A stretch of 64,000 nucleotides of DNA, from positions 2,232,001 through 2,296,000 of the forward strand of contig NZ_CP066203.1 of assembly GCF_017310545.1 (NCBI RefSeq), written 5' to 3'. Below are positions 41,862 through 55,333 of this stretch, in pieces. Under the pieces are notes generated by a model, which was given only the letters and a program-made list of their open reading frames with translations, did no database searches and had not been told where the DNA came from. Source of the DNA: Methylacidimicrobium sp. B4 (GTDB lineage: Bacteria > Verrucomicrobiota > Verrucomicrobiia > Methylacidiphilales > Methylacidiphilaceae). A program made the translations under genes and the position numbers. How positions within the stretch are numbered: position 1 is the first letter of the stretch; each line of letters starts with the position of its first letter.

Positions 41862-41877
41862 GACGTCGCCAGACGTC
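41862..41877. promoter_or_regulatory. Twin GACGTC palindrome upstream of cmr2 (candidate operator)
   Basis: GACGTC at 41862-41867 and again at 41872-41877, with centres exactly ten bases apart; the second copy extends to the palindrome AGACGTCT. It lies just upstream of the -35 element of the cmr2 promoter. The same arrangement recurs at 46243-46258 before cmr4. An operator role is inferred. Confidence 0.45.
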
Positions 41878-41883
41878 TCTTGC

Positions 41884-41912
41884 TTGGCAATGGTGGCAAA
41901 AGTTCCTAATAA
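41884..41912 (+). promoter_or_regulatory. Predicted promoter of the cmr operon
   Basis: TTGGCA (41884-41889), 17-base spacer, TAATAA (41907-41912). Both hexamers are close to consensus. The expected transcription start is about 41918-41920, directly at the cmr2 ATG (41921), so the message would have almost no leader. Confidence 0.6.
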
Positions 41913-41920
41913 TCTCCGCC

Positions 41921-44900
41921 ATGAACGCCATGAACTTCTGGCAGCGGAAGCTCCTGGCTCTTCTGCACGATCCGCCAAGCAAGGCCTTCAATCTCCGAGA
42001 GCATGAGGAGATTGCGGCTTCCCATCTGCGTGCAGCCGGCTTCGATCGGCAAAGCGTTCGCTGGTTTTTTGATAAGAAGTGCGATCATGCAGCCGCCGCA
42101 GCGGATCGGATCATCTTCCCGAAACCATCCGTCCTCAGTTCCCCATTCCAGGGCCGATTCCACCATCCCTTGGGGGAAGGGAGGCTCGTTTTTAGCCCGC
42201 CGATCGAGCCAGACGATGCGGAAGCGAAGGTGGCGAAAGGCCAGCCTCAGTACGAAGGGATTAGCAATGTGGAGGACCTTCCGGGTTGCCCCGCCGGATC
42301 GGGCAGGGACTGGGCCAACTTCTTCCTCCACTGGCGGCTCTGGCCATACTTCGCAGCAGAGCAAGACCCAAGGCTTTCCTTCTTGCCAGCGGATACCCGA
42401 ATCCCGGATCACACCATTTGGACCCATTGCGCGATTACCAGCGCCCTCCAGGGATGCGTGGAGGTCACCGGAGACGGTCCGAACACCGAAATTCGTTCCT
42501 TTTCTCCCGCCTTCCTCCTCATGCAGGTCGGCCCGGTCCAGGAATTTATTGCCCAAGCTCGGAAGACGCGCGACCTATGGAGCGGAAGCTATCTCCTCTC
42601 TTTTTTGATGGCACACGGGCTCAAGGCGATCACCGACCGCATCGGCCCGGATGCGATTCTTTTTCCATCCCTGTGCGGCCAGCCCCTCTTTGACTGGCTC
42701 CACAAGAAGGAACTGTACGATCGAGTGAGCCCTGAACTCTGGCAGGACCTCTGTGTAACCGACAAGCAGATCCTCACCCCCAATCTTCCCAACCGCTTTC
42801 TTGCGCTCGTTCCTTCGGAACGCGCCAAGGCCCTGGCCGAGGCTGCCGAGGCATCGATCCGGCAATGCCTCAACGACATCTCCGAGAAGTGCCTGGACTG
42901 GTTTAAGAAGCAAGGCAATCCGCTCGACTCCAAGGGAGAGGGGAGGTGGCGAGAGCAGGTCGACCATTTTCTTTCGATCCATTGGCAGACCTGGCCCTGG
43001 GCCGCCTCTCCGGAGCAGGCTCGCTTGGAGCATGAGGCCCTTTTTGGAGAGGATCCTGAGAAGAATGGCCTTGCCAAGCGGTTCCGCGCCTACCACCACG
43101 CCGCTCAGGAGGGAATTCCTCGAGATCATCTCGATCCCCGCAACTATCGCCATCGCAGTTGGAAGGAGGGGAGTCAGTGGACATCGGAAATCCTGTTCAA
43201 TGCGGACGGGCTTCCCGAGGTTGAGAACCCCGGATTTGCCTGGTCGATCCATTACTCGATGGTCGACTCCCATCTCGCTGCTCGACGGAATACCCGGGAC
43301 TTTCCCTTTTGGGGGAAGCCTGAAGAGCTCGCGCGGCGCTCCGGTCTCCCCAAAGACGTCCTCTCGGGGAAGGAGGAGTCGGTTGGAGGAAAGGAGTGGC
43401 TGGAGAGCTTGGAGAAGATCCCGGGGCATCTCTTCCGGCCTGGGGAGATCCTGGGAGCCCTGAACCTCATCAAGCGGGTCTGGCACAAGGCGTATTTGGA
43501 ACCCGGTTCTGAGGAAAGATCAAAGATTGATGGCTCTGATGGCTCTGCTCGCTTCGACTCAGTTCCCGACGTGGCTGCCGCCGATTGGGTCGAGGAGCTT
43601 CGGGAAAGGCTGGAAGGGGAACCAGAGGGAAGTCAGATTCGTAACTCGCTCGCCCAATTCGGGCAATCGCTGGATGTGGCGAAGGAGGAAGTGGATTTAC
43701 CCGATTATCGCCCCTATTCGGAATGCAAGGACAGCAAGGAATGGATTAACAAAAACTCTCCTTCTCTTTTCCACGAGCCGGAGATCCGACGCTGGATCCG
43801 GGATCGGCGGGAGAAGGCGGAGTCCTCGAGGTGCAGTGAGGCTGCGCGGAATCTCAAGAGGCTCTATGACGAAGTAGGGAGCTCTCCACGCCGCTACGTC
43901 GCTGTCCTTGCGCTCGATGGCGACTCGATGGGCAAGTGGTTGAGCGGCGAAAATCTGCCACCGCTAAAGAGCCAGTTGTCCTCCGAGTCCTTGAACTATT
44001 TTAGCAAAGAGCAGCCAAATGCGAAGGATCCAAAAGCCCTATGCGAGCTTAAAGAAAGCAAACGGCTTCTGACCCCAAGCTTTCACCTCGAGTTGAGCAC
44101 AGCGCTCGCCAACTTTGCGATCTACCTCGCTTGGCCGATCGTCGAATCCTTTCAAGGAGAGCTCATCTATGCTGGAGGCGATGATGTCCTTGCCATGCTC
44201 CCCGCCCGCAATGCGCTGCGTTGCGCTGCCGCACTTCGCATGGCCTTTCAAGGCAATCCGAAACTTCATTCCTCTTTTCGGGGCGTCAAAGAGGCCGATG
44301 AGGATCAGTGGGGCTTCGCTGTCCTGGACGCTGACTGGTGGCGGACCAGACAGCAAGTCAAGCTTCCTCGAGATTACCACATCCTCGTGCCCGGAAGGCG
44401 GGCGGATCTCTCCGCAGGGATTGCCATTGGCCATATGTATAGCCCGCTGCAGAACCTCATGGAAGCGGCAAGGGCCGCTGAGAAGAGGGCCAAAAGCAAA
44501 TTGGGGTACGGCAGGTCGGCCTTCGCGATCAGCCTCTTTAAGCGGTCAGGGGAGATTCTGCAGTGGGGAGCAAAGTGGGAGTCGTCTGCGATCGGGCTTA
44601 GCGAAGAGTTTGCGAGGCTTTCGCGAAAGGAGAGAGAGAAGAAGCGGAAGCTCTCGGGACGCTTTCCCTATGCGCTAGCCGCTCTCTTGCGCACTTATTC
44701 GCTAGCGGAGCCGGCGGGTCGCATGAGGATCGATGAGTCGATCGCCCCCCTCTGTCGGGCCGATCTAGAGTACGTTGTGAGCCGCCAAGCGGCTCAAGAG
44801 TGGGACCAAGCCGAACGGAATGCGTTTTTCTCGCTTGCCTCTCGGTATCTGGAGGAATGTCGCGAGGAAAATAGGCTTCTGGACGACTTCCTTGGACCGT

Positions 44901-44938
44901 TCCTGACCGAGGCCTTTTTGGAGGATCAACGGGACTGA
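41921..44938 (+). CDS. cmr2: Type III-B CRISPR module large subunit Cas10/Cmr2
   Basis: Signature protein of the Cmr complex, 1005 residues. When target RNA binds, Cas10 makes cyclic oligoadenylates from ATP. The N-terminal HD site is visible as LLALLHDPPSKAF (H16, D17), followed by a long Cmr2-specific region (GPVQEFIAQARKTRDLWSGS). The first palm domain has LALDGDSMGKWLSG (Asp 666, 668), and the second has the cyclase motif YAGGDDVLAML (GGDD at 752-755), fully conserved. The start could be ATG 41921 or ATG 41930; no Shine-Dalgarno is seen. It heads the operon and is more AT-rich than its neighbours outside the island. Confidence 0.95.
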   Translation: MNAMNFWQRKLLALLHDPPSKAFNLREHEEIAASHLRAAGFDRQSVRWFFDKKCDHAAAAADRIIFPKPSVLSSPFQGRFHHPLGEGRLVFSPPIEPDDAEAKVAKGQPQYEGISNVEDLPGCPAGSGRDWANFFLHWRLWPYFAAEQDPRLSFLPADTRIPDHTIWTHCAITSALQGCVEVTGDGPNTEIRSFSPAFLLMQVGPVQEFIAQARKTRDLWSGSYLLSFLMAHGLKAITDRIGPDAILFPSLCGQPLFDWLHKKELYDRVSPELWQDLCVTDKQILTPNLPNRFLALVPSERAKALAEAAEASIRQCLNDISEKCLDWFKKQGNPLDSKGEGRWREQVDHFLSIHWQTWPWAASPEQARLEHEALFGEDPEKNGLAKRFRAYHHAAQEGIPRDHLDPRNYRHRSWKEGSQWTSEILFNADGLPEVENPGFAWSIHYSMVDSHLAARRNTRDFPFWGKPEELARRSGLPKDVLSGKEESVGGKEWLESLEKIPGHLFRPGEILGALNLIKRVWHKAYLEPGSEERSKIDGSDGSARFDSVPDVAAADWVEELRERLEGEPEGSQIRNSLAQFGQSLDVAKEEVDLPDYRPYSECKDSKEWINKNSPSLFHEPEIRRWIRDRREKAESSRCSEAARNLKRLYDEVGSSPRRYVAVLALDGDSMGKWLSGENLPPLKSQLSSESLNYFSKEQPNAKDPKALCELKESKRLLTPSFHLELSTALANFAIYLAWPIVESFQGELIYAGGDDVLAMLPARNALRCAAALRMAFQGNPKLHSSFRGVKEADEDQWGFAVLDADWWRTRQQVKLPRDYHILVPGRRADLSAGIAIGHMYSPLQNLMEAARAAEKRAKSKLGYGRSAFAISLFKRSGEILQWGAKWESSAIGLSEEFARLSRKEREKKRKLSGRFPYALAALLRTYSLAEPAGRMRIDESIAPLCRADLEYVVSRQAAQEWDQAERNAFFSLASRYLEECREENRLLDDFLGPFLTEAFLEDQRD

Positions 44939-44940
44939 GC

Positions 44941-46296
44941 ATGGAAAGCTTTGATTTGATTCCAATCGATACCCTCTTCTTCCGAGATGCACGGCCTCTT
45001 GCTGCCGGTAGCGCCTATGGTCGAGGGGCCCGTTGGCCGTTGCCCCCGGCCCTTCATAGCGCCTTGAGGACCGCCCTGCTCTCGAAAGCGGGGACTCTGC
45101 CCGCCGCATATCGGCCTGGTGCCTTACGCAGGGGAGTTCCCCGCGGTCGAATGGGGAGCGATGCCTTTCAATGGCTCCACATCCACGGGCCCTTTCCCGT
45201 TCTTGGAAAGAAAACCTACTTTCCGCGTCCTGCCGATCTGGTGGTGGACCAAGGCAAGGCAGGCTTCCTATTCCCCGTAAGGCCGATCAATAGAGAAAAC
45301 GATCTCTTGCCTGGAGAAAACAATCTGCCGCGTCCACTTCTCTACGCCTGTGCCAGAGCCAAGGCAGCAAAGGAGGAGCACCCGGTTCAATGGATCGAGC
45401 ATGCCTCCTTTGAGAAATATCTGGCGGATAAGCCATTCGACTTGCCGGGCGAGGAAGAGCTTTGGGACTCTGAGAAACGAATCGGGGTTTCGATCGATCC
45501 CGGGAGACAAACCGCCAGGGAGGGGCAGCTCTATGTTGCCGAGCATCTGCGGCTGCGGGATGGGGCTCGGCTTCGATTTGCGGTCAACGTCCCTCCTGCT
45601 CACAAGGAGCGGCATCCGGAAGAGGATGGGCTGCTCGTGAACGATCTGGCGGAATCGACCATCTGCTTTGGCGGAGAGGGGCGCTTTGTTCGCGTGAGGA
45701 AGGCCCCAAGCCCATTGCAACTGCCGCGGATCGATCTAGCTGGGCAGCGGGTGAAGTGGGTTCTTCTGACTCCCGCTGTCTTCCTTTACGGCTGGCGTCC
45801 CGGCTGGGTAGACGAAGCGGGGCGGGTCCGCTTGCGGGTGATCGACAAGGAGGCTCGTCGGGAGTTTCGGAGAAGGCGCCGAAGCGACCCTGCTTGGCAA
45901 TACAACGAAGACGAAGAGACCGCTCCTCGGATTTCCGCCCGGCTTGTGGCCGCCTGTCTAGGGAAGCCCGAGCCCGTGAGCGGCTGGGCTCTTCTTCCCC
46001 GCATTGGCAATGGCAGCGAAGGCGATGGGACACCAGGGGCTGGGTCCAAGCCGACCATGCTGGCTGTTCCGGCAGGCTCCGTCTACTACTTCGAGGCGGA
46101 AAACGAGAGGGAGGCCCAAAACCTCGCCGAGGCTCTCCACGGACGCTGCCGCTCTGATTTCCTAGGGGAGAAGGGCCTCGGCCTCGGAGTTTGCGGCTCC
46201 TGGCAGCTTTTGGAAGCCTCAAAGCGGCATGGGCCAGAGAGCGACGTCGCTGGACGTCAGGGGAGGAGCGCGAGCGGAGAAGAAAGGATAAGCTGA
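44941..46296 (+). CDS. cmr3: Type III-B CRISPR module protein Cmr3
   Basis: A RAMP (Cas5-group) subunit of 451 residues that, with Cmr2, caps the crRNA 5' handle end. The N-terminus IPIDTLFFRDARPLAAGSAYGRGARWPLPP is the Cmr3 hallmark (the LFFRDARP segment). LTPAVFLYGWRPGW in the middle and a C-terminal PAGSVYYFEAE plus GEKGLGLGVCGSW glycine-rich RAMP loop complete it. The ATG follows the cmr2 stop after two bases. The 3' end contains the second GACGTC pair. Confidence 0.93.
   Translation: MESFDLIPIDTLFFRDARPLAAGSAYGRGARWPLPPALHSALRTALLSKAGTLPAAYRPGALRRGVPRGRMGSDAFQWLHIHGPFPVLGKKTYFPRPADLVVDQGKAGFLFPVRPINRENDLLPGENNLPRPLLYACARAKAAKEEHPVQWIEHASFEKYLADKPFDLPGEEELWDSEKRIGVSIDPGRQTAREGQLYVAEHLRLRDGARLRFAVNVPPAHKERHPEEDGLLVNDLAESTICFGGEGRFVRVRKAPSPLQLPRIDLAGQRVKWVLLTPAVFLYGWRPGWVDEAGRVRLRVIDKEARREFRRRRRSDPAWQYNEDEETAPRISARLVAACLGKPEPVSGWALLPRIGNGSEGDGTPGAGSKPTMLAVPAGSVYYFEAENEREAQNLAEALHGRCRSDFLGEKGLGLGVCGSWQLLEASKRHGPESDVAGRQGRSASGEERIS
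46243..46258. promoter_or_regulatory. Second twin GACGTC motif, before cmr4
   Basis: GACGTC at 46243-46248 and 46253-46258 with the same four-base spacer as upstream of cmr2; CGACGTCGC is shared at the left half. It lies within the end of cmr3, about 55 bases before cmr4. Coding constraint is possible, but the repetition of the whole layout is notable. Confidence 0.4.
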
Positions 46297-46312: not shown

Positions 46313-47296
46313 ATGACCGAGGCGATAGAAGTGGAAGCAGAAGGACCGAATGGCAGGGAGGGAGCCAAAGAAGAATCGCTCTGCTCCCCTTTGTACATCT
46401 TCACACGAACGCCCCTTCATGTCGGAGCCGGAGCATCCGTCGGAGCCATCGATCTGCCGATCCAGCGAGAGCGCCATACCGGTTTTCCGATCATTCCCGG
46501 GAGCACGCTCAAGGGTGTCTTTGCCGATTGCTGCTATGAGCAAAAGGGTAACGGCAGTCCAACGACAACTCGAAGCAGCGACGGGAAGTGGCTTTTTGGT
46601 TCCGATGACGCTGAGAACGCTGCGGCTGGCGCGCTCCAGTTTTCGGAGGCGAAGCTCTTGGCCTTCCCGATCCGATCGGCCAAAGGCTGCTTTGCTTGGA
46701 TCACTTGCCCTCTGATCTTGAAGCGCTATGCCAGGGATCTTGGGAAGGAGTCGCTCGTGGCAAGCCTGCCAGATGTGAAGGAGGAAGAGGCTCGCTTCGA
46801 TACGGGAACCCTTGGGATCGGAAAAAAGGTGATCCTTGAGGAGTATGCCTTTACCCACGTTGGCGACCCGTCCTCGGAGATTGGGGAAGCCCTAGCCGCG
46901 CTGCTTCCAGAGGATCCAATCTGGACCAATATCTGGACTAAGGAGAAAAAGCGGCTTGTCATCCTCTCCGATGCTTCAATGAGCTTCTTTGCCCGCTCCT
47001 CCTGCGAGGTCGCGCAGCACGTGAAGATTAGCGACGAAACCGGGGCAGCGGAAGAGGGGGCGCTCTTTAATCAGGAGAACGTGCCAAGCGAAACCATGTT
47101 CTACTCCCTCGTCCGTGCCTCCCAGGAGCGGCGGGGAGGCGAGGCTGCCGAGAGACGGTCTCCCCGCGCTGCCCGGTCCGCCTTTCGAAGGCTTCTCGAA
47201 CAGGAGAAAGGGGTCTTCCAGTTCGGCGCCGACGCGGGAACCGGGCTCGGTTTCTGCACGGTCCGGTTGGAGGAAGAGGCTGAGAGGCAATCCTAA
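46313..47296 (+). CDS. cmr4: Type III-B CRISPR module protein Cmr4 (Cas7)
   Basis: Backbone subunit of the complex, 327 residues, several copies of which bind crRNA and cut target RNA every six nucleotides. The core begins at residue 25 (PLYIFTRTPLHVGAGASVGAID). The Asp in GAIDLPIQRERHTGFPIIPG is the expected catalytic residue, and GSTLKGVF follows. C-terminal FQFGADAGTGLGFC is the Gly-rich RAMP loop. The first 24 residues (charged, Glu-rich) are an extension without homology. AAGGAGAGG precedes the ATG. Confidence 0.94.
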   Translation: MTEAIEVEAEGPNGREGAKEESLCSPLYIFTRTPLHVGAGASVGAIDLPIQRERHTGFPIIPGSTLKGVFADCCYEQKGNGSPTTTRSSDGKWLFGSDDAENAAAGALQFSEAKLLAFPIRSAKGCFAWITCPLILKRYARDLGKESLVASLPDVKEEEARFDTGTLGIGKKVILEEYAFTHVGDPSSEIGEALAALLPEDPIWTNIWTKEKKRLVILSDASMSFFARSSCEVAQHVKISDETGAAEEGALFNQENVPSETMFYSLVRASQERRGGEAAERRSPRAARSAFRRLLEQEKGVFQFGADAGTGLGFCTVRLEEEAERQS

Positions 47297-47314: not shown

Positions 47315-47692
47315 ATGCACAACCTCGAGCAGGAGCGGGCCAAGCATGCGTTGGAGAAGAGCAAGGATCTCGACCGACAAGCCGTCAACAAGCTTCCGGC
47401 CTTGATCATGAATAACGGGCTTTTGGCGACCATCGCCTTTGCCACCGACGGAGACTCCCGAGGCGGGATGGCTAAGGCGATGGATGCGATCGCCGACCAT
47501 TTGGCTAAGCGCCAGCTTATTGAGCGCCAGCTTATTGGGGAGGTCACCGCCAAGAAGATGCTCGAGGCGCTCGCAGGGAAAGAATCGGTGCAGCTTCGGT
47601 TAGCCACAGAGGAAGCGCTGGCCTATCTAGTCTATCTCAAGCGGTATGCTCAAAAGAAAACCAAAGAAAACCAAAAGGGGGGAATGAGGTGA
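47315..47692 (+). CDS. cmr5: Type III-B CRISPR module small subunit Cmr5 (Cas11)
   Basis: All-helical small subunit of 125 residues lining the target-RNA channel. The pattern NLEQERAKHALEK, KLPALIMNNGLLATIAF and a C-terminal Lys-rich helix is typical. Within it, a perfect 15-base tandem duplication (47508-47537) repeats the peptide RQLIE/RQLIG and lengthens a helix by five residues without breaking the frame. GAGGAGG precedes the ATG. Its stop overlaps the cmr6 start. Confidence 0.92.
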   Translation: MHNLEQERAKHALEKSKDLDRQAVNKLPALIMNNGLLATIAFATDGDSRGGMAKAMDAIADHLAKRQLIERQLIGEVTAKKMLEALAGKESVQLRLATEEALAYLVYLKRYAQKKTKENQKGGMR

Positions 47693-48975
47693 GCGCTCAG
47701 CGCACAAGCGACTCACGCTGGCTCTTGCCGAGCGACACGGCCAGCGTGTTGGTGAAGGGAAATGATCCGCCTTTTCATCAATGTACATCCCGGTCCCTGC
47801 TTTTGGAGCGCTTTGCCGATCCCCGGAAAAGAGACCAAAGGAAGGAGTATCTGAAACGCATCTTCGACGCCAAGCCATGTCTGGCGGAGGAGAGGCGAAA
47901 TGCCTGGCTGGGATTCATCAACACGGCTTGCAAGCCCTGCGATCTCTTGTTTGGCCGTCTTAGATCGCGTCTTATGGTCAATATGGCGGGAGGGGTCATG
48001 GAAAATGCTGGCCTCTGTCTCGACCGCTTCGGGCTCCCCTACATCCCAGGGAGTGCCGTCAAGGGATGCGCGCGGCGAGCGGCAATCCATGCGCTTAGGC
48101 ATACACCTGTAGAGCAGGAAGAGCAGAAAGCGCACAAGGTCGACCGGCTCGTAGAGATTGCCTTGGTCTTCGGATGGACCGATGGCGACTGGTCCGATTC
48201 CTCTGACTTTGCTTATGGGTGCCAGGATGGAAAATCGGCGGCAATTCTAGAGAAGGCGGCGGAAAAGCTGTGGCAACGAATTTATGGAGATCGTCAGCCC
48301 AAAGGCAAGTTGCCGCAAGCGCTTCCCAACTTCGCAGGAAGCGTCCACTTCCTTCCGGCCCACCCCTACCGTCTAGCCGAGCGTGACCTGGAACTCGACG
48401 TGGTGACCTGTCACCATCCAGAATACTATCAAGGAAAGAAGAAGACTGCCTTTGACTGTGAATATCCGATCCCAGTGCTTTTTCTCACCGTGGCACCTGG
48501 GTCCATTTTCGTGTTTCCATTGCAAGCGGCTCGACACGGCGGAGAGGAGTGGACGGCGAAGGCACAAGCTTGGCTGAAAAGAGGCCTAGAGACGATGGGT
48601 ATCGGCGCTAAGACGGGGGCAGGTTACGGTTGGTGTGATTGTTCGGAACAAGTCCAGAAGAAGCATCAAGAGGAGATCGTGCAGCAGCGAGAAGAGCACG
48701 AACGCGCTCAGAAACGGGCCAGCCTTGAGCCGGATCCGGAGCGCCTGAATTCCTTTAAGAGCCTTAAAGAGGACAATCTTCGAGGGAAAATTAATGATTT
48801 CAAGGACGAAGAAGTCTATTGGACCAATCAAGACGACACGTACCAACTCTCGCTTTTTCACTATTTAACGAAGATTGATACACAAATTTACGAAAAGGAG
48901 CGGCACAACCCAAAGAGCAAAGTTCTCAGGGCCCTCAAAAATCTCGCCAAAAAGTTTGGAAAGACCCCGCCGTGA
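47689..48975 (+). CDS. cmr6: Type III-B CRISPR module protein Cmr6 with long C-terminal extension
   Basis: A RAMP subunit of 428 residues capping the Cas7 filament. The family core (about residues 60-315) shows ENAGLCLDRFGLPYIPGSAVKG, NFAGSVHFLPAHPY, LELDVVTCHHPEYY and the Gly-rich GIGAKTGAGYGW. The last 113 residues (QKKHQEEIVQQREEHERAQK onward) are highly charged and helical. They extend past the usual end of Cmr6, and their coding sequence is visibly AT-richer. The GTG start at 47689 overlaps the cmr5 stop (GTGA). Confidence 0.92.
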   Translation: MSAQRTSDSRWLLPSDTASVLVKGNDPPFHQCTSRSLLLERFADPRKRDQRKEYLKRIFDAKPCLAEERRNAWLGFINTACKPCDLLFGRLRSRLMVNMAGGVMENAGLCLDRFGLPYIPGSAVKGCARRAAIHALRHTPVEQEEQKAHKVDRLVEIALVFGWTDGDWSDSSDFAYGCQDGKSAAILEKAAEKLWQRIYGDRQPKGKLPQALPNFAGSVHFLPAHPYRLAERDLELDVVTCHHPEYYQGKKKTAFDCEYPIPVLFLTVAPGSIFVFPLQAARHGGEEWTAKAQAWLKRGLETMGIGAKTGAGYGWCDCSEQVQKKHQEEIVQQREEHERAQKRASLEPDPERLNSFKSLKEDNLRGKINDFKDEEVYWTNQDDTYQLSLFHYLTKIDTQIYEKERHNPKSKVLRALKNLAKKFGKTPP

Positions 48976-49859
48976 ATCCCGCCCCCTACGACTTTGAGTT
49001 TCTGACCCCATGCTTTTGCGGAGGTGCCGATCCCACCAAAGCCGAGCTTCGAGCCCCTTCGATTCGCGGGGCGCTCCGCTGGTGGTTTCGCGCTTTAGGC
49101 GGGACGCAAGAACAAGAAGAGCAGATCTTTGGAACCGTGAGGGATAAGGCGAAAGCCTCCTCGCTGGTGATTCGGGTGGAGAGGAAACCGTGCGGAGGCG
49201 AGGCCGATTGGGCGCAAAAGCCTCTCAAGCAGGATAATGGCGGCTATATCTGGTATTTTCTTGAAAAAGGAAATCGGTGGAGGAAGGAGGCCGCCCTCTA
49301 CCCAGGGAGCAAGGCCACCGTTGACGTTCTCTTCCGTCACCCTTTAGCTCCTGTAGATGAGGAAAAACTAAAGAAAGCCTGGGAAGCCTTTTGTCGCTTC
49401 GGTTCCATCGGTTATCGAGCGACCCGTGCCGCTGGCGCATTTCGTGTGGAGCGATTTGATGGGAGCTTAGAAGAGTACGAGCGCGCAGCGGAAACGATTC
49501 TCAAGCCCGCCGGATTCGTCGTGCTGTTCTTTCCAGATAAGCGCAAGAATTGGCGAAGTATTGCTCGCTTTGCGGAAGAAAAGCTAAAAGATCCTCTTCG
49601 GACAAACTTCCCCGGATCCTGCCCTAGCCCGCTAGGCAGTGCAGATCCTCGCCAAACCAGCGCCGTCTATCTCCGACCATTGAAGGTTGGAGCGGAGGAC
49701 TACTACCTCATGGCCTTCGAGGCTCCGCATGATCGAGTCGTTGGAGAGAAGAGTAGATTGAACAAGAATGGAGAGAATGAGGAAAATAAATCCGTCTTGA
49801 ATTTAGTGTTTCACGATCCGGCTCCCTATGGTGGTGGCAGGGGAACGATTCGGCCTTAA
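48972..49859 (+). CDS. cmr1: Type III-B CRISPR module protein Cmr1
   Basis: A RAMP subunit of 295 residues at the 3' end of the crRNA. The N-terminus FEFLTPCFCGGADPTKAELRAPSIRGALRWWFRA is the Cmr1 hallmark. FGSIGYRATRAAGAF is the Gly-rich loop in the middle. It is at the short end for the family. GTG 48972 overlaps the cmr6 stop. The order cmr2-3-4-5-6-1 is one of the common bacterial arrangements. Confidence 0.92.
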   Translation: MNPAPYDFEFLTPCFCGGADPTKAELRAPSIRGALRWWFRALGGTQEQEEQIFGTVRDKAKASSLVIRVERKPCGGEADWAQKPLKQDNGGYIWYFLEKGNRWRKEAALYPGSKATVDVLFRHPLAPVDEEKLKKAWEAFCRFGSIGYRATRAAGAFRVERFDGSLEEYERAAETILKPAGFVVLFFPDKRKNWRSIARFAEEKLKDPLRTNFPGSCPSPLGSADPRQTSAVYLRPLKVGAEDYYLMAFEAPHDRVVGEKSRLNKNGENEENKSVLNLVFHDPAPYGGGRGTIRP

Positions 49860-49865
49860 ACCAGA

Positions 49866-49886
49866 ATGACTAGTGACTGGTGACTC
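49866..49886 (+). repeat. Three tandem heptamers TGACTNG at the start of the Card1 gene
   Basis: TGACTAG, TGACTGG and TGACTCG follow one another without gaps. They span the cmr1-card1 junction and include the GTG start codon of the next gene (49880). Confidence 0.6.
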
Positions 49887-51082
49887 GTCCTTTCCCTATA
49901 GAACATCCAATATTGCTAACCCTGGCTAGCCGCCAGATCTGGCCGCAGATCCTTGCCGTCTTGCATATCGGGCCAACGAACGTGCTCTTGCTCCACAGCG
50001 AGAATAGGCCCGAGTCAAAGGATCCTGCGCAGCGGCTTAAGCGCTTTTTTGATGCCTCCGGGCTTGTTTCCAAGGGACGGACCAGAATGCAAGAGATTCC
50101 CTATCACGATTTCGAAGGCATTCTGCACGCCCTTGATCGACTAGAAGTCGATCCGCAAAAGAGTCTCCTTCACTTCACGGGAGGGAATAAGCTGATGGCG
50201 ATGGCGGCTTTCCAATGGGCGAGGCGCCGGGGGATAACGTCGTTCTATCTCGAACGGGGCAATCGGCTGATCTGGTTTACCCCGGACGAAGGGAGAATCA
50301 ACGTATGCGGGAAGGAGTTGGACGGCAGCATCGCCGATGATTTGGATCCGTTGGAGCTTCTTCGCTGCCAAATCGAGGCTTCGGAGCTGGAGAGAAGAGG
50401 CGAACTCCTCCAGTTGAACGAAGAAGGACGCGCGCTTTCCTTAGAGGAGCTTTCTCGTCGCTGCAAATTCGGAGAGGACCTGCGGAGCCTTTTGTCTATC
50501 GAAGATCGGCACGAAGCAGATAAAAAAGCGAAGCAAGGCGATCGTCTCGAATATAATACGGCCGCTGTGCTCCTCAAGCTCGGGGTCCACCGTGTACGAC
50601 GAAGCCTCCGGCTCAAGGTCAAGAGCTCATTCGGAGTTTCGACCTCCAAGCCTCACGAGGAGATCGACTTGCTCTTTACTCACGGAGGGAGGCTCTGGCT
50701 TGTGGACTGCAAAGACGAACAACCCGTCGAAGGATTGGTCGACAAGCTGGAGAGAGAATTGAAAAGGAGAGGTATTAGGACCGAAGAGAAAGAACTTGCC
50801 GATCGGCTCAGCCGAATTCGGGAGGAGCTTCACATGGGGCAGGTCAAGACGTTGAAACTTGATCTTTTGGCGGTCCAGAATGCTGGGGGATTGCTCGGGC
50901 AAACCATCTGCGTTAGGAGGAGCGCTATGCCCGAAGAGGTTGCGGCCTATGCCAAGCAAAAGAGGATCGAGGTGGTTCTCTCCTCTCAGTTGGTCCCCGG
51001 CCTAAAGGCGCTGCTGCAGCCCAAAAGTCCTGCGAAACCTGAGGATCTGCAGGACCTTCGAAAGACATTAGGGCAGCGATGA
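49880..51082 (+). CDS. CARF-domain nuclease, Card1/Can2 type (DUF1887)
   Basis: A 400-residue cyclic-oligoadenylate sensor and effector. The N-terminal CARF domain (about residues 1-150) has the DUF1887 motif LLHFTGGNKLMAMA near residue 97. A winged-helix-like linker with EEGRALSLEELSRRCKFGEDL follows. The C-terminal PD-(D/E)xK nuclease domain has GDRLEYNTAAVL (E224), KPHEEIDLLF (D263) and LWLVDCKDE (D276, K278). Card1 homologues are activated by cA4 and cleave ssDNA and RNA. GTG 49880 is the first usable in-frame start and lacks a clear Shine-Dalgarno. It follows cmr1 after 20 bases, so it belongs to the operon. Confidence 0.88.
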   Translation: MTRPFPIEHPILLTLASRQIWPQILAVLHIGPTNVLLLHSENRPESKDPAQRLKRFFDASGLVSKGRTRMQEIPYHDFEGILHALDRLEVDPQKSLLHFTGGNKLMAMAAFQWARRRGITSFYLERGNRLIWFTPDEGRINVCGKELDGSIADDLDPLELLRCQIEASELERRGELLQLNEEGRALSLEELSRRCKFGEDLRSLLSIEDRHEADKKAKQGDRLEYNTAAVLLKLGVHRVRRSLRLKVKSSFGVSTSKPHEEIDLLFTHGGRLWLVDCKDEQPVEGLVDKLERELKRRGIRTEEKELADRLSRIREELHMGQVKTLKLDLLAVQNAGGLLGQTICVRRSAMPEEVAAYAKQKRIEVVLSSQLVPGLKALLQPKSPAKPEDLQDLRKTLGQR

Positions 51083-51156
51083 CCGATGTTGCCACTTCCT
51101 CGTGCAGCGCGGCCGGACCAAAGTGGGACACGACGCTCTAGCTATTGAGAAGTTTT

Positions 51157-52092
51157 ATGCAAAACCTAAGCCTCTCCCTTCTGTCTCCTCCTGAGCCATT
51201 TCAGATCCTCGTTATCCATCTGCCTGGAAATGGGATCGCCGACCCCAAGGAGCTTGCCGGAGTCTCCTTGCCAGAGAGAGTGGATCATCAAAAGGGGCTG
51301 ATCCTTTATGGGAGGGGCCCCATTTGGCTTTACGCCTATTTGATCCACTTATCCCATCCCTCGCGTTGGGCGGCCATCTACGATCCGCGCTTCGGAGGAA
51401 TCGTCGTGCAAGCTCATCATCCAGAAGCTCCTTCCGTAGGTGCGATCATACCCCGGGAGTCGATCGAGCGCTATGTGCCGCGCCAGACGGAATCCGCTCT
51501 TACAAAGAGGAGCGCGGCGGAAAGCCCAAGGCATCGGGTCATTGCGATCGTGGGTCCGCCGCATAGCGGGAAATCGGTCTTTCTGTGGTGGTTATACAAT
51601 ACGCTGTCCAAGCGAGTGCCGGCTGCAGTCTTCCACGACCAAGTCTTCATCGTCCGGGCCTGCCCAGATGGAGAAGGCAACTGGTTTCATGAAATCTCGG
51701 GGAGTAACGAGACACTCCGCTTCAAGAATCAATGGGACGCGGATTTTGTGGCTAAGATCGTGGAACACATTCGGGGGCTATCTCTCGCAAAGGTTCTTCT
51801 TCTGGTGGATTGCGGCGGAAAGATTGACCGATTCAATCAAGCCATTCTCAATGCCTGCACGGATGCCCTCATTGTTTCCAGGGAGGACGAGGCGATCGCG
51901 GAGTGGCGCGGTGTTGCAAAGTCTTGCGAGCTGCGGATCATTGCGGAAGTCAAGTCGATCCTAGAGCCCGGCAGCTCGGTTTTGTCCGAGAGCCCCCTTC
52001 GCCTCCGTATCGGTGGCCTCATTCGGGGCGCGTCCCCTGGCGAGCTTCCTGAGCCGCTGATCGCGCACGTAATCTCGGTGGTCAATCCGTAG
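51157..52092 (+). CDS. csx3: Csx3 (Crn3-type ring nuclease) fused to an AAA/P-loop ATPase domain
   Basis: A 311-residue fusion. Residues 1-100 show the Csx3 fold pattern (LILYGRGPIWLYAYLIHL, WAAIYDPRFGGIVVQAH, GAII). Residues 125-311 are a P-loop ATPase with Walker A GPPHSGKS (133-140) and Walker B VLLLVDCGG. Csx3 is known as a ring nuclease that degrades cA4; the function of the fused ATPase is not established. ATG 51157 is preferred over TTG 51145. A 74-base gap separates it from card1. Placing signal sensor and signal eraser side by side supports a cA4-based response. Confidence 0.85.
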   Translation: MQNLSLSLLSPPEPFQILVIHLPGNGIADPKELAGVSLPERVDHQKGLILYGRGPIWLYAYLIHLSHPSRWAAIYDPRFGGIVVQAHHPEAPSVGAIIPRESIERYVPRQTESALTKRSAAESPRHRVIAIVGPPHSGKSVFLWWLYNTLSKRVPAAVFHDQVFIVRACPDGEGNWFHEISGSNETLRFKNQWDADFVAKIVEHIRGLSLAKVLLLVDCGGKIDRFNQAILNACTDALIVSREDEAIAEWRGVAKSCELRIIAEVKSILEPGSSVLSESPLRLRIGGLIRGASPGELPEPLIAHVISVVNP

Positions 52093-52384: not shown

Positions 52385-52413
52385 AGTTGTGTATCGTCCT
52401 TTCTGTAAATTCT
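52385..52413 (+). repeat. Left terminal inverted repeat of the IS256-family element
   Basis: Begins AGTTGTGTATCGTCC and continues into TTTCTGTAAATTC. It is nearly identical to the reverse complement of 53753-53781. Confidence 0.75.
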
Positions 52414-52487
52414 CTTCCAGCCGCTGGCTGGCTGGTTTGCCCAGCGCAATCATGATGCCATGACTTTGACAAAGGAGCGTAACGATC

Positions 52488-53654
52488 ATGGTAATGCGAG
52501 TCGAAACAAACCCTTTGGAAGCAGCCTATGCGGTGCTACTCGAGCATGGGCTGGATGGCGCAGGCGAAGCCTTGCGCATTTTGGTGAATGAAGCGGCCAA
52601 AATTGAACGGGTCGAGTTTCTCGGCGCCAGGCCCTACGAGCGCACCGCAGCCCGGCGCGACTGGGCCAACGGTTATAAGCCCAAGACGGTGCTGACCAAG
52701 CTGGGCGAGCTCACCTTCGAGGTACCGCAAGTGCGTTCTGGCGACTTCTATCCTTCTGCGCTCGAGAAAGGCACCCGCACCGATCAGGCGGTGAATCTGG
52801 CCTTGGCCGAGATGTACGTCCAGGGCGTCTCCACCCGGCGGGTGATCGACGTGTTGCAGCGGCTCTTGGGGCCGGAGATCAAGCTTTCTTCAGCCCAGGT
52901 CAGTCGCGCTGCCGCCAGACTCGATGAAGGGCTCAAGGCCTGGCGGGAACGCCCGTTGGGCGAGGTGCCTTATCTCTTTCTGGACGCCCGCTATGAGAAG
53001 GTGCGCCTGGAAGGACGGATCGTCGATTGCGCGGTACTGATTGCAGTGGGTATCGAGGCAACGGGCAAGCGCCGGGTGCTGGGCTGCGAGGTGGCTACAT
53101 CGGAAGCGGAGATCAACTGGCGCCGCTTCCTGGAAAGCCTCCTTGCCCGTGGATTGAAGGGGGTCAAGCTCATCGTTGCCGACGACCACGCGGGACTGAA
53201 GGCCGCGCGCCGTGCAGTGTTGCCTTCCGTGCCCTGGCAGCGCTGCCAGTTCCACCTGCAGCAAAACGCCGGTCAGTTTGTCACGCGCCAAGAAGCGAAG
53301 AAGACCGTTGCCCGGCAGCTGCGCACGATCTTCAATGCGCCGGATCGAAGCGAGGCCCAGCGGCTGTTACGGGAGGCGCTTGCGCAATGGCGCACGGAGC
53401 ATCCCAAGCTCGGGGAGTGGGCTGAGGAAGCCATACCAGAAAGCCTGACCGTCTTCGACTTCCCTGTCGAGCACCGCGTGCGGCTGCGCACCACCAACGG
53501 CCTGGAGCGCATCAACCGGGAACTCAGACGCCGCACCCGGGTGGCAAGCATCTTCCCCAATCCCGAATCGTGCCTGCGGCTCATTTCCGCCCTGCTGGCC
53601 GAACTCGACGACGAGTGGATGACCGGCAAGGTCTATCTCAACCCCAACCCGTAA
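52488..53654 (+). CDS. IS256 family transposase
   Basis: A full-length DDE transposase of 388 residues. The Mutator/IS256 pattern is visible: VPQVRSGDFYP near residue 75, LALAEMYVQGVSTRRV, the first Asp in YLFLDARYEKVR, the second in KLIVADDHAGLKAARR, PWQRCQFHLQQNA (the CxxH region), and the Glu in TTNGLERINRELRRR. No stop or frameshift is seen, so the element may be active. ATG 52488 or 52494 could start it. It lies between csx3 and a truncated cas1. Confidence 0.95.
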   Translation: MVMRVETNPLEAAYAVLLEHGLDGAGEALRILVNEAAKIERVEFLGARPYERTAARRDWANGYKPKTVLTKLGELTFEVPQVRSGDFYPSALEKGTRTDQAVNLALAEMYVQGVSTRRVIDVLQRLLGPEIKLSSAQVSRAAARLDEGLKAWRERPLGEVPYLFLDARYEKVRLEGRIVDCAVLIAVGIEATGKRRVLGCEVATSEAEINWRRFLESLLARGLKGVKLIVADDHAGLKAARRAVLPSVPWQRCQFHLQQNAGQFVTRQEAKKTVARQLRTIFNAPDRSEAQRLLREALAQWRTEHPKLGEWAEEAIPESLTVFDFPVEHRVRLRTTNGLERINRELRRRTRVASIFPNPESCLRLISALLAELDDEWMTGKVYLNPNP

Positions 53655-53678
53655 CCCAGGCATCATGATCTGCTGCGC

Positions 53679-53703
53679 GGAAATTTACAGAAAAGGAGTT
53701 GCA
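53679..53703 (-). repeat. Extra partial copy of the IS terminal sequence
   Basis: GGAAATTTACAGAAAAGGAG resembles the right inverted repeat 75 bases further on (GGAATTTACAGAAAGAACG). It lies between the transposase stop and the true right end, so the element has two end-like sites on this side. Confidence 0.5.
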
Positions 53704-53752
53704 CCATCCACCATGACCGCTGCCCGGCGAGCTTTCAGCCTACTGCTGAAAA

Positions 53753-53781
53753 GGAATTTACAGAAAGAACGATACGCAACT
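53753..53781 (-). repeat. Right terminal inverted repeat of the IS256-family element
   Basis: Reverse complement reads AGTTGCGTATCGTTC then TTTCTGTAAATTC, matching the left end with two mismatches. It supplies the last codons and the stop of the truncated cas1 reading frame. Confidence 0.75.
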
Positions 53782-53964
53782 TTCCGCCAAAGCCGGGGAG
53801 GTGAGGGAAACGGTCTCTTCGATCGTAAGCCGGTCGAGATCGGCGATTGGAATTTCCCGCAGCACCTCCGGGTTGTCGGCTCCATTTCCAGAGCCGAGAA
53901 CGACCAGCCGTTCGGAGAGGAGCCCGAGCTTCGTATAGCTCTGAACGATACAGGCGCTGGGCAT
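53782..53964 (-). pseudogene. cas1: cas1, N-terminal fragment truncated by the IS256-family element
   Basis: The minus-strand frame starts at ATG 53964 behind a strong GGAAGGAGG. It encodes about 61 residues with the Cas1 N-terminal beta-domain pattern: KLGLLSERLVVLG, VLREIPIADLDRLTI and VSLTSPALAE. The frame then runs into the IS end (SCVSFFL, stop). The catalytic C-terminal domain with the metal-binding Glu/His/Asp residues is missing and is not recognisable beyond the IS. Cas1 is the integrase of spacer acquisition, so this copy cannot work. It lies downstream of the NE0113-type CARF gene on the same strand (163-base gap). Confidence 0.8.
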
Positions 53965-54127
53965 GGGGAGTCCTCCTTCCCGGAATTTTCGCTTTTAGGG
54001 AAGCTCGGGGCTTCCGCCTTCCCCGTTTACTCCTTACGTTACGCTCGAGGGAGAGATTTCGCCGCTTCGGTGACGTCCGAGGACATCGGGACTCGCTATC
54101 CAGGAGGACGCCTCGGAGATTGCAGGA

Positions 54128-55333
54128 TCAAGCTGGGATGACATCGATGCCGAAGGATCCGCGGCGGGGCAAGAGGTAATCCAGCTCCGCGGTAAAACCA
54201 GCAGCCTTCAGCTTCCGTCGCAAGGAGCTGAGAAGCTTCCGGAGATCTTCGGTGTCGCATTTTTCCCATCCGCGCGCCGCCTGGTGCTGGAAGGATCCCT
54301 CGGGATGGTCTTTGGCCCACCGGCTCCGGAATTGGTTCAGGGCATCGATCGCGTTCTTCTGTGCGAGAAATGGACGTGTGCCCTTCCGGGGGCAGTCGAG
54401 GAGGAACGCATAGAGAAGATGCTCCCGTCCGGAAAGACCAACAAGGCTCCCATTGACCTCGAGCGTGGGTCGATCGTGGCCAAGGGTAATGCGAGGTTTC
54501 TGGGTCAAAGAGGCAAGTTGTTGCGAGCAAGAACGAACCAAAGCGGTGAAGTGACCGGGAAAGGAGCCGATTTGGCGCGGGAAGAGCAGGCGGAGGGGAA
54601 CAAAAGGAAGATCGGCAAGCTCAATGCGAGCAGCATCGGAAGATACAGCTTGAACGCCCCCGGTCTTGGGATCCCGATAGGTGTGCTCGAGCGGCGGCTT
54701 GGTGGGAAAGAAGAACGAGGGGGAAAGCCCGGGGGAATCGAATGGTTCGCTGACGAGGACATGGGTGATGCGGTCTTCGGGCCTGCCCAAGAGCGAGACA
54801 CAGGCATAAAGGAGCGCGCTCATGCTCTTCCTTCCGCCGGCGACCGACGCGATGAGGAGCGTATCGGGGTTTTCTGTGATCCCGCGAATCTCTTCCAGGA
54901 GAGCGTCGGCAAGGGCCTCGTTGTCCAAAGCGGTGCGAACGTCCTCGATCCCGCGCATTCTGCCTTCATCGGCTACAGGCCGTCCCAAGACCTGGATCTC
55001 CTCAAGGATCAGCAGATGAGACTGCTGACGCCGATCGCGCAAGAGGCTCCGACGAAGCGTCTCCCACACCGAACGCTCGCCGAAAGCGGGGGATACGGAA
55101 TGAAGCTGCTCCTCCGCGCAACGCTTTCCCGCGGCGGTGGTGAGGATCCGAACTCGATGGGGGATGAGGGCGGGCTGCTCGTGCGCTAAGGCCCAGACGG
55201 TTTCGGTCACGACGGCGGGCGTCATTCCGGTTACCGCAAGCAAGACGATCTCCTTCGGCGGCCTGTGGGGAGCCGTTGGGGCGGGGTGGAGCCGGATCGA
55301 TTGGTGTCCGGCATCGGATCGGGGCGGGGTCAT
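54128..55333 (-). CDS. NE0113-family CRISPR-associated CARF protein with winged-helix-like C-terminus
   Basis: A 401-residue protein. The N-terminal part matches the Cas_NE0113 (TIGR02584) family: EIVLLAVTGMTPAVVTETVWAL near residue 28, LLIASVAGGRKSMSALLYACVSLL near residue 158, and HVLVSEPF. This is a CARF-type nucleotide-sensing fold, annotated in some databases as a Csm6-like ring nuclease. Residues 280-401 (ITLGHDRPTLEVNGSLVGLS ... LRKLLSSLRRKLKAAG) look like a winged-helix DNA-binding domain rather than a HEPN nuclease; no RxxxxH motif is clear. A regulatory role is inferred. ATG 55333 is weakly supported, but homology needs a start before residue 28. Confidence 0.82.
   Translation of the reverse strand: MTPPRSDAGHQSIRLHPAPTAPHRPPKEIVLLAVTGMTPAVVTETVWALAHEQPALIPHRVRILTTAAGKRCAEEQLHSVSPAFGERSVWETLRRSLLRDRRQQSHLLILEEIQVLGRPVADEGRMRGIEDVRTALDNEALADALLEEIRGITENPDTLLIASVAGGRKSMSALLYACVSLLGRPEDRITHVLVSEPFDSPGLSPSFFFPTKPPLEHTYRDPKTGGVQAVSSDAARIELADLPFVPLRLLFPRQIGSFPGHFTALVRSCSQQLASLTQKPRITLGHDRPTLEVNGSLVGLSGREHLLYAFLLDCPRKGTRPFLAQKNAIDALNQFRSRWAKDHPEGSFQHQAARGWEKCDTEDLRKLLSSLRRKLKAAGFTAELDYLLPRRGSFGIDVIPA

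Follow-up and report, generated by a model that had tools for sequence, protein, structure and literature searches.

The paired hexamer GACGTC-N4-GACGTC, which recurs at the promoters of a type III-B CRISPR locus of Methylacidimicrobium sp. B4, quite probably serves as the operator for the CARF-wHTH activator that the locus itself encodes (Cas_NE0113/CARF5), through which both effector and adaptation genes would be regulated. The motif, its spacing, the promoter register, the target genes, the co-occurrence and the predicted folds were computed, and from these we infer binding, activation rather than repression, and the ligand. The window analysed is a stretch of 64,000 nucleotides (contig NZ_CP066203.1, positions 2,232,001 to 2,296,000). 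Operator 1, GACGTC-GCCA-GACGTC (GACGTCGCCAGACGTC; 41862-41877, plus strand), lies upstream of the cmr2 promoter, and operator 2, GACGTC-GCTG-GACGTC (GACGTCGCTGGACGTC; 46243-46258, plus strand), stands before cmr4. Both positions had been reported in a sequence-only reading of the window and were verified here. That reading was correct but understated, as it overlooked a third copy with one mismatch, operator 3, GATGTC-CTCG-GACGTC (54072-54087, minus strand), before cas1. The predicted regulon goes beyond the two genes it named, taking in cas1-cas2 and in many cases the gene for the regulator itself. A whole-genome scan of 2,371,269 bases, the count which that reading had proposed, found just 2 exact copies, the cmr2 and cmr4 sites, both in the locus and accompanied by no unrelated ones; the reversed-pattern control gave 0 matches in the same scan. 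Allowing at most one mismatch, 4 sites were found genome-wide, 3 of them inside the CRISPR locus. Exact GACGTC pairs with any spacer of 0-30 bases number 5 in the genome, and the N4 spacer occurs only in the cmr2 and cmr4 copies.

The locus is of type III-B and encodes Cmr2 (GGDD), Cmr3-Cmr6, Cmr1, a Card1-like CARF nuclease, Csx3 and the Cas_NE0113 CARF protein. The cmr2 promoter (41884-41913, plus strand) has its -35 element TTGGCA at 41884-41889 and its -10 element TAATAAT at 41907-41913, in the family register, with operator 1 directly upstream of the -35, as had been claimed earlier. The cmr2/cas10 gene (41921-44938, plus strand; TIGR02577, E 2.5e-74), in whose translation the GGDD cyclase motif can be read, starts 8 bp past the -10, leaving a short leader or none. 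Operator 2 is located within the 3' end of cmr3 (44941-46296, plus strand; PF09700, E 2.8e-49), 54 bp ahead of the cmr4 ATG at 46313; the earlier description of this site as lying before cmr4 therefore holds, with the qualification that it is embedded in the preceding gene. By register, an internal cmr4 promoter is placed with its -10-like TAAGCT at 46289-46294 (plus strand). Downstream follow cmr4 (46313-47296; TIGR02580, E 5e-59), the profile-matched cmr5 (47315-47692), cmr6 (47689-48975) and cmr1 (48972-49859), a Card1/Can2-like CARF nuclease (49880-51082; under the Pfam cut-off, PADLOC CARF_PDDEXK E 3.5e-19), a Csx3/Crn3-AAA ring nuclease (51145-52092; TIGR02579 E 3.8e-24, PADLOC Csx3-AAA) and an IS256 transposase (52488-53654; NF033543), all on the plus strand. 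On the minus strand lie a 5' remnant of cas1 (53758-53964), identified against the intact cas1-cas2 of the close relative G001 (L049:9064-10457), the cas1 promoter, whose -10-like TAACGT at 54036-54041 was also assigned by register, and the CARF-wHTH regulator of the Cas_NE0113 family (54128-55333; PF09623 E 2.9e-25, TIGR02584 E 2e-51). Operator 3 is 108 bp from the start of cas1, of which only the first 68 codons (68 aa) are left here. Comparison of window positions 52385-53781 with G001 (L049 6847-10275) indicates that IS256 stands in place of the greater part of cas1, the whole of cas2 and the neighbouring CRISPR array; the repeat of the G001 array does not occur in the window. The adaptation module is dead at the window locus, though operator 3 and its promoter persist.

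Conservation in relatives, which had been suggested as a check, is strong and reaches far beyond the family. The exact twin was found 35-60 bp upstream of cmr2 in the 4 other genomes of the genus that carry cmr2 and likewise in G007, from a different genus, where Cmr2 identity is down to 48%. The N4 letters before cmr2 vary (GCCA, CCGC, CACC, CGCT, CAAA), and the N4 length is constant. The cmr3/cmr4 site is exact in G001 and G005 and has one mismatch in G004 and G006; the cas1 site is kept in G001, G004, G005, G006 and G007 and is weaker in G010 and G011. Downstream of the cas1 site of G001, an intact cas1 is followed by cas2. Among the genomes searched, the CARF-wHTH gene and full-length cmr2 occur in an identical set of nine. 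G005 also has a partial second CARF gene (L072, about 780860-781171; 105 residues at 52% identity) with a shifted-looking cas1 start behind it, and this looks like a rearranged duplicate.

With the CARF-wHTH protein alone as bait, 80 loci (1.17 Mb in total), mostly from Verrucomicrobiota and neighbouring groups, were fetched from other public genomes. These contained 20 exact and 52 one-mismatch twins, compared to 0 exact and 2-3 one-mismatch matches for each of the control pairs CTGCAG, GTCGAC, CAGCTG and ACGTGC. GACGTC pairs at other spacers gave 0-1 exact matches, so that the spacing is fixed at 4. A site with at most one mismatch was present in 44 of the 80 loci, versus 2 of 80 for the control pattern. 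The sites lie directly before cmr2, cmr4 and cas1; about a dozen loci also have one before the CARF-wHTH gene itself. Those of cmr4 are often exactly 43 bp ahead of the start, in or past the end of cmr3, and this type also occurs in the distant loci L092, L100, L101, L124, L127 and L130. A second, separate sample comprised 388 phylum genomes, of which 32 have NE0113 above the cut-off; there the matches listed include 17 exact sites within 19 kb of NE0113 on the same contig, in 12 genomes; by chance well under 1 would be expected, an approximate figure based on a hand count of at least some 95 exact sites across about 1.4 Gb. One-mismatch copies are genome-wide no commoner than controls in some larger high-GC relatives, and specificity there therefore rests on exact sites in promoter context.

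To describe the promoters, 76 gene-oriented sites, or 70 once near-copies were removed, were aligned on the operator, and only the downstream sequence was examined. The -10 pattern TAnnnT begins at position 47 in 26 of the 70 sites; taking positions 46-48 together brings the number to 42, compared to 0-4 elsewhere. Similarity to TTGACA, averaged over the sites, has its sole peak at position 24 (2.73 versus about 1.4), and ATG/GTG start codons peak at operator position 59. This register constitutes a second signal, independent of the selection of the sites. The -35 begins 8 bp past the operator and a further 17 bp separate it from the -10; in the window the corresponding sequences are TAATAAT at 46-52 (cmr2), TAAGCT at 47-52 (cmr4) and TAACGT at 47-52 (cas1). 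At promoters of the CARF gene the register signal (3 of 12) is weaker than at those of cmr2, cmr4 and cas1. Many target genes appear to start at the expected transcription start and would be leaderless, and the operator would be centred about 50 bp upstream of that predicted start.

A fixed distance upstream of the -35 in many promoters, as given by the -35 and -10 peaks at 24 and 47, is the arrangement of class II-like activators. The constancy of this spot across several promoter kinds indicates an activator layout, since one would expect a repressor to cover the promoter. The predicted operator position consequently points to activation, though position alone is no proof. The opposite sign, in which the CARF-wHTH protein binds the same sites as a repressor and cyclic oligoadenylate frees the immune genes, is unlikely, and it has some points in its favour. 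Costs of expression favour silence between infections, and Csa3b represses adaptation genes in Sulfolobus (PMC7480081). Against repression stand the location of the operator upstream of the -35 at one fixed distance, rather than over the -35, -10 or +1, and the weak -35 and -10 hexamers, which are the architecture of activated promoters.

The putative activator belongs to Cas_NE0113, with 175 bits for TIGR02584 (curated cut-off 80.65) and 89.7 for PF09623 (cut-off 23). An AlphaFold2 model built with 53 homologues reached a pLDDT of 93.7 over the full protein and comprises a CARF domain at about residues 28-250 and a winged helix at about 276-401 (54128-54508). Foldseek matched the N-terminal domain to Cad1, the ring nuclease Sso2081, Csm6 and Cam1, in agreement with a CARF fold, and a near-invariant AGGRK motif is in keeping with a putative cyclic-oligoadenylate pocket. 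No catalytic effector domain was found in a Pfam search of the protein. When the C-terminal 126 residues were modelled alone (pLDDT 96), the top Foldseek matches were nearly all of the OmpR/PhoB type, including NsrR, AdeR, ArlR, CpxR, PhoP, OmpR and PhoB, at a weak level (E 0.08 at best, TM about 0.45-0.6). A profile search with this domain returned ArlR, PrrA and CpxR at E 0.009-0.03. The secondary structure fits the type, with an N-terminal beta sheet, three helices and a C-terminal hairpin, for a Foldseek match that is itself weak. Trans_reg_C had no Pfam match even at E 10 in five family members, and since Pfam offers nothing convincing at that threshold, strict membership of the OmpR/PhoB family is not claimed. 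Beside the core promoter, proteins of the OmpR/PhoB family commonly occupy a pair of half-sites separated by about one helical turn, and the 10-bp half-site spacing suits binding of this type. NCBIfam names the family 'CRISPR-associated ring nuclease Csm6' and the best PADLOC model for the protein is CARF5--CARF_TM; both names look misleading for this clade, given the winged helix and the lack of a Csm6 HEPN domain in the model.

The suggestion of the sequence-only reading that the CARF-wHTH protein is the binder gains support from this DNA-binding type of domain and from co-occurrence, and the protein is accordingly a predicted binder. As a negative control, 18 cmr loci were taken from genomes of the 388-genome sample without an NE0113 match. 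In 16 of these 18 type III-B loci there is no site at one mismatch or less. The other two have sites before cmr2 (G174) and before cmr2 and cmr4 (G375); the G174 contig stops 90 bp beyond its cmr2 site, where relatives have the CARF gene, and G375 does encode a PF09623 protein, cut by the contig end. Promoter-type sites occur in 12 of 25 NE0113 genomes versus 0 of 16 controls (one-sided Fisher P 0.0007), or versus 2 of 18 (P 0.011). The idea that the motif is a general property of cmr promoters is ruled out by the 16 loci. In about half of the examined phylum genomes with NE0113, no operator could be recognised within one mismatch, so that some lineages of the family may rely on different sites. 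The motif is also absent from the plasmid NE0113 loci of the proteobacteria Allochromatium and Aeromonas and of Rhodothermus.

A different reader of the twins, such as a global host regulator or another protein of the CRISPR locus with which the CARF-wHTH gene merely co-occurs, is still less probable than repression. Room for it exists because binding by the CARF-wHTH protein is a prediction, and G244 has GATATC-TGTG-GATATC (L261 10680-10695) in promoter register before cmr2 with NE0113 not detectable in the genome. A CARF-transmembrane protein is encoded near by in G244 (L261:2463-3464). Against another reader speaks the near absence of further copies from the home genome. No other accessory gene is common to the motif loci: in L285 the CARF gene is accompanied by cas1 and cas2 alone, and L263 has a Card1-like gene and no motif. 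The motif is missing where NE0113 is missing in the 16 control loci, and sites also precede the CARF gene itself.

Since GACGTC is self-complementary, the twin allows three readings, as inverted repeat, as direct repeat and as hairpin. An RNA hairpin with a 6-bp stem and tetraloop, acting as a terminator, attenuator or processing site, is very improbable, even though the pattern can self-fold, positions 41862-41877 were flagged as terminator-like in the window scan, and three genomes of another family have terminators of this form. Among the 76 sites, 45 stem pairs are changed, of which 33 are broken, 12 are one-sided wobbles and 0 are compensated. This lack of compensation, together with the place of the site at a fixed distance upstream of the promoter, supports a DNA site and is strong evidence against conservation of an RNA stem. 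The three genomes in question (G027, G022 and G014 of family f3 of the order; L003, L004 and L005, position 1501) have the pattern as A-GGACGTC-n4-GACGTCC-T. As CRISPR operators these matches were rejected, being ordinary terminators unrelated to CRISPR and a coincidence of hairpin constraint. Chance recurrence of a common hexamer has a negligible probability. In its favour, matches with up to three mismatches are no commoner in the window than in shuffles, which is why the case was built on genome-wide and cross-genome data. There the same promoters are marked across the phylum with drifting N4 letters, the 20 exact and 52 one-mismatch sites of the 80 loci against 0 and 2-3 in controls refuting it.

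As a DNA site, the operator varies in an informative manner. The variant half-site GACATC is found in G321 at the cmr2, cmr4 and cas1 promoters together, and GATATC in both halves before cmr2 in G255, with the -10 in or near register at these sites. Such concerted change of half-sites suggests that one trans-acting protein reads all sites, and the half-site is better written GAYRTC. In loci L120-L168 the variants GACATC, GATGTC and GATATC are often paired, with the -10 in register. These patterns suggest a possible lineage-specific joint drift of operator and reader. The orientation of variants is direct (GACATC/GACATC) in 5 cases and inverted (GACATC/GATGTC) in 4. Within each half, variation is greater at the first base than at the last (21 versus 6, P 0.006), which weakly supports a tandem arrangement of the near-palindromic half-sites. 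Of the dimer-operator interpretation given earlier, the distance of 10 bp between half-site centres was confirmed, and the dimer arrangement itself is not shown by sequence alone.

According to the proposed mechanism of the activator, each of the two GAYRTC half-sites, spaced 10 bp from centre to centre, would hold an OmpR/PhoB-like winged helix. Once bound about 7 bp ahead of the -35 and centred near -50, the protein would recruit RNA polymerase to weak sigma-70-type promoters, often producing leaderless or short-leader mRNAs. The regulon would consist of cmr2-cmr3, cmr4-cmr5-cmr6-cmr1 and cas1-cas2, and in many relatives would also include the gene for the regulator itself. Cyclic oligoadenylate from Cas10/Cmr2 is presumably what the CARF domain senses, and the neighbouring Csx3 and Card1-like genes suggest cA4 as the most likely ligand. 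Infection would in this manner tune the expression of interference and adaptation together.

Compared to known systems, the closest likeness is to Csa3a/CAPPa of Sulfolobales, a CARF-winged-helix factor associated with a palindrome before acquisition genes and CRISPR leaders, for which specific, ligand-dependent binding could not be demonstrated in vitro (PMC8699464). Both systems combine CARF with a winged helix and have a short dyad which is limited to CRISPR promoters, tracks the regulator and lies just upstream of the acquisition-gene core promoter; a CRISPR-specific promoter dyad of this kind before acquisition genes was found in the home genome and in relatives. Csa3a/CAPPa belongs to a different CARF family and acts at archaeal BRE/TATA promoters with a motif, reported to be 18 bp long, at acquisition genes and leaders, whereas the present system has bacterial sigma-70-type promoters, GAYRTC at 10-bp spacing and an OmpR/PhoB-like domain, and its targets also include the effector genes cmr2 and cmr4 and the regulator gene. 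Csa3 had no match to the regulator in Pfam, NCBIfam or PADLOC and is absent among the solved-structure matches listed. By analogy, the present system is a candidate functional counterpart of Csa3/CAPPa and not a member of Csa3. Csa3b of Sulfolobus islandicus, which represses adaptation genes and is reported to activate cmr and respond to a cyclic oligoadenylate analogue (PMC7480081), is likewise a CARF regulator that acts on adaptation genes as well as on type III-B cmr promoters, but it is archaeal, acts with opposite signs at its two target sets and has no known GACGTC twin. The predicted C-terminal fold and the two half-sites about one turn apart beside the core promoter resemble OmpR/PhoB response regulators on tandem boxes; unlike these, the protein has a CARF domain instead of a receiver domain or phosphorylation. 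Makarova et al. 2014 predicted that NE0113 proteins control transcription directly (PMC4012209), and for the window regulator, a member of Cas_NE0113 (PF09623/TIGR02584), this predicted role agrees with the operator finding. No operator, target set or mechanism for NE0113 was found in the literature searched.

On a wider scale, it is tentatively proposed, with slightly less than even confidence, that in type III-B systems of much of the Verrucomicrobiota and neighbouring phyla, cyclic oligoadenylate produced by Cas10 upon target recognition may act through a CARF-OmpR-type activator on GAYRTC twins. The effector complex, spacer acquisition and the activator itself would then be raised in a positive loop leading from detection to memory. 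As far as the literature searched shows, this is the first proposed operator and regulon for the NE0113 CARF family, whose proteins have been predicted regulators since 2014 and are otherwise annotated as ring nucleases. The short operator and fixed promoter layout help to make testable in bacteria the question of whether the type III second messenger controls the transcription of CRISPR genes, spacer acquisition especially.
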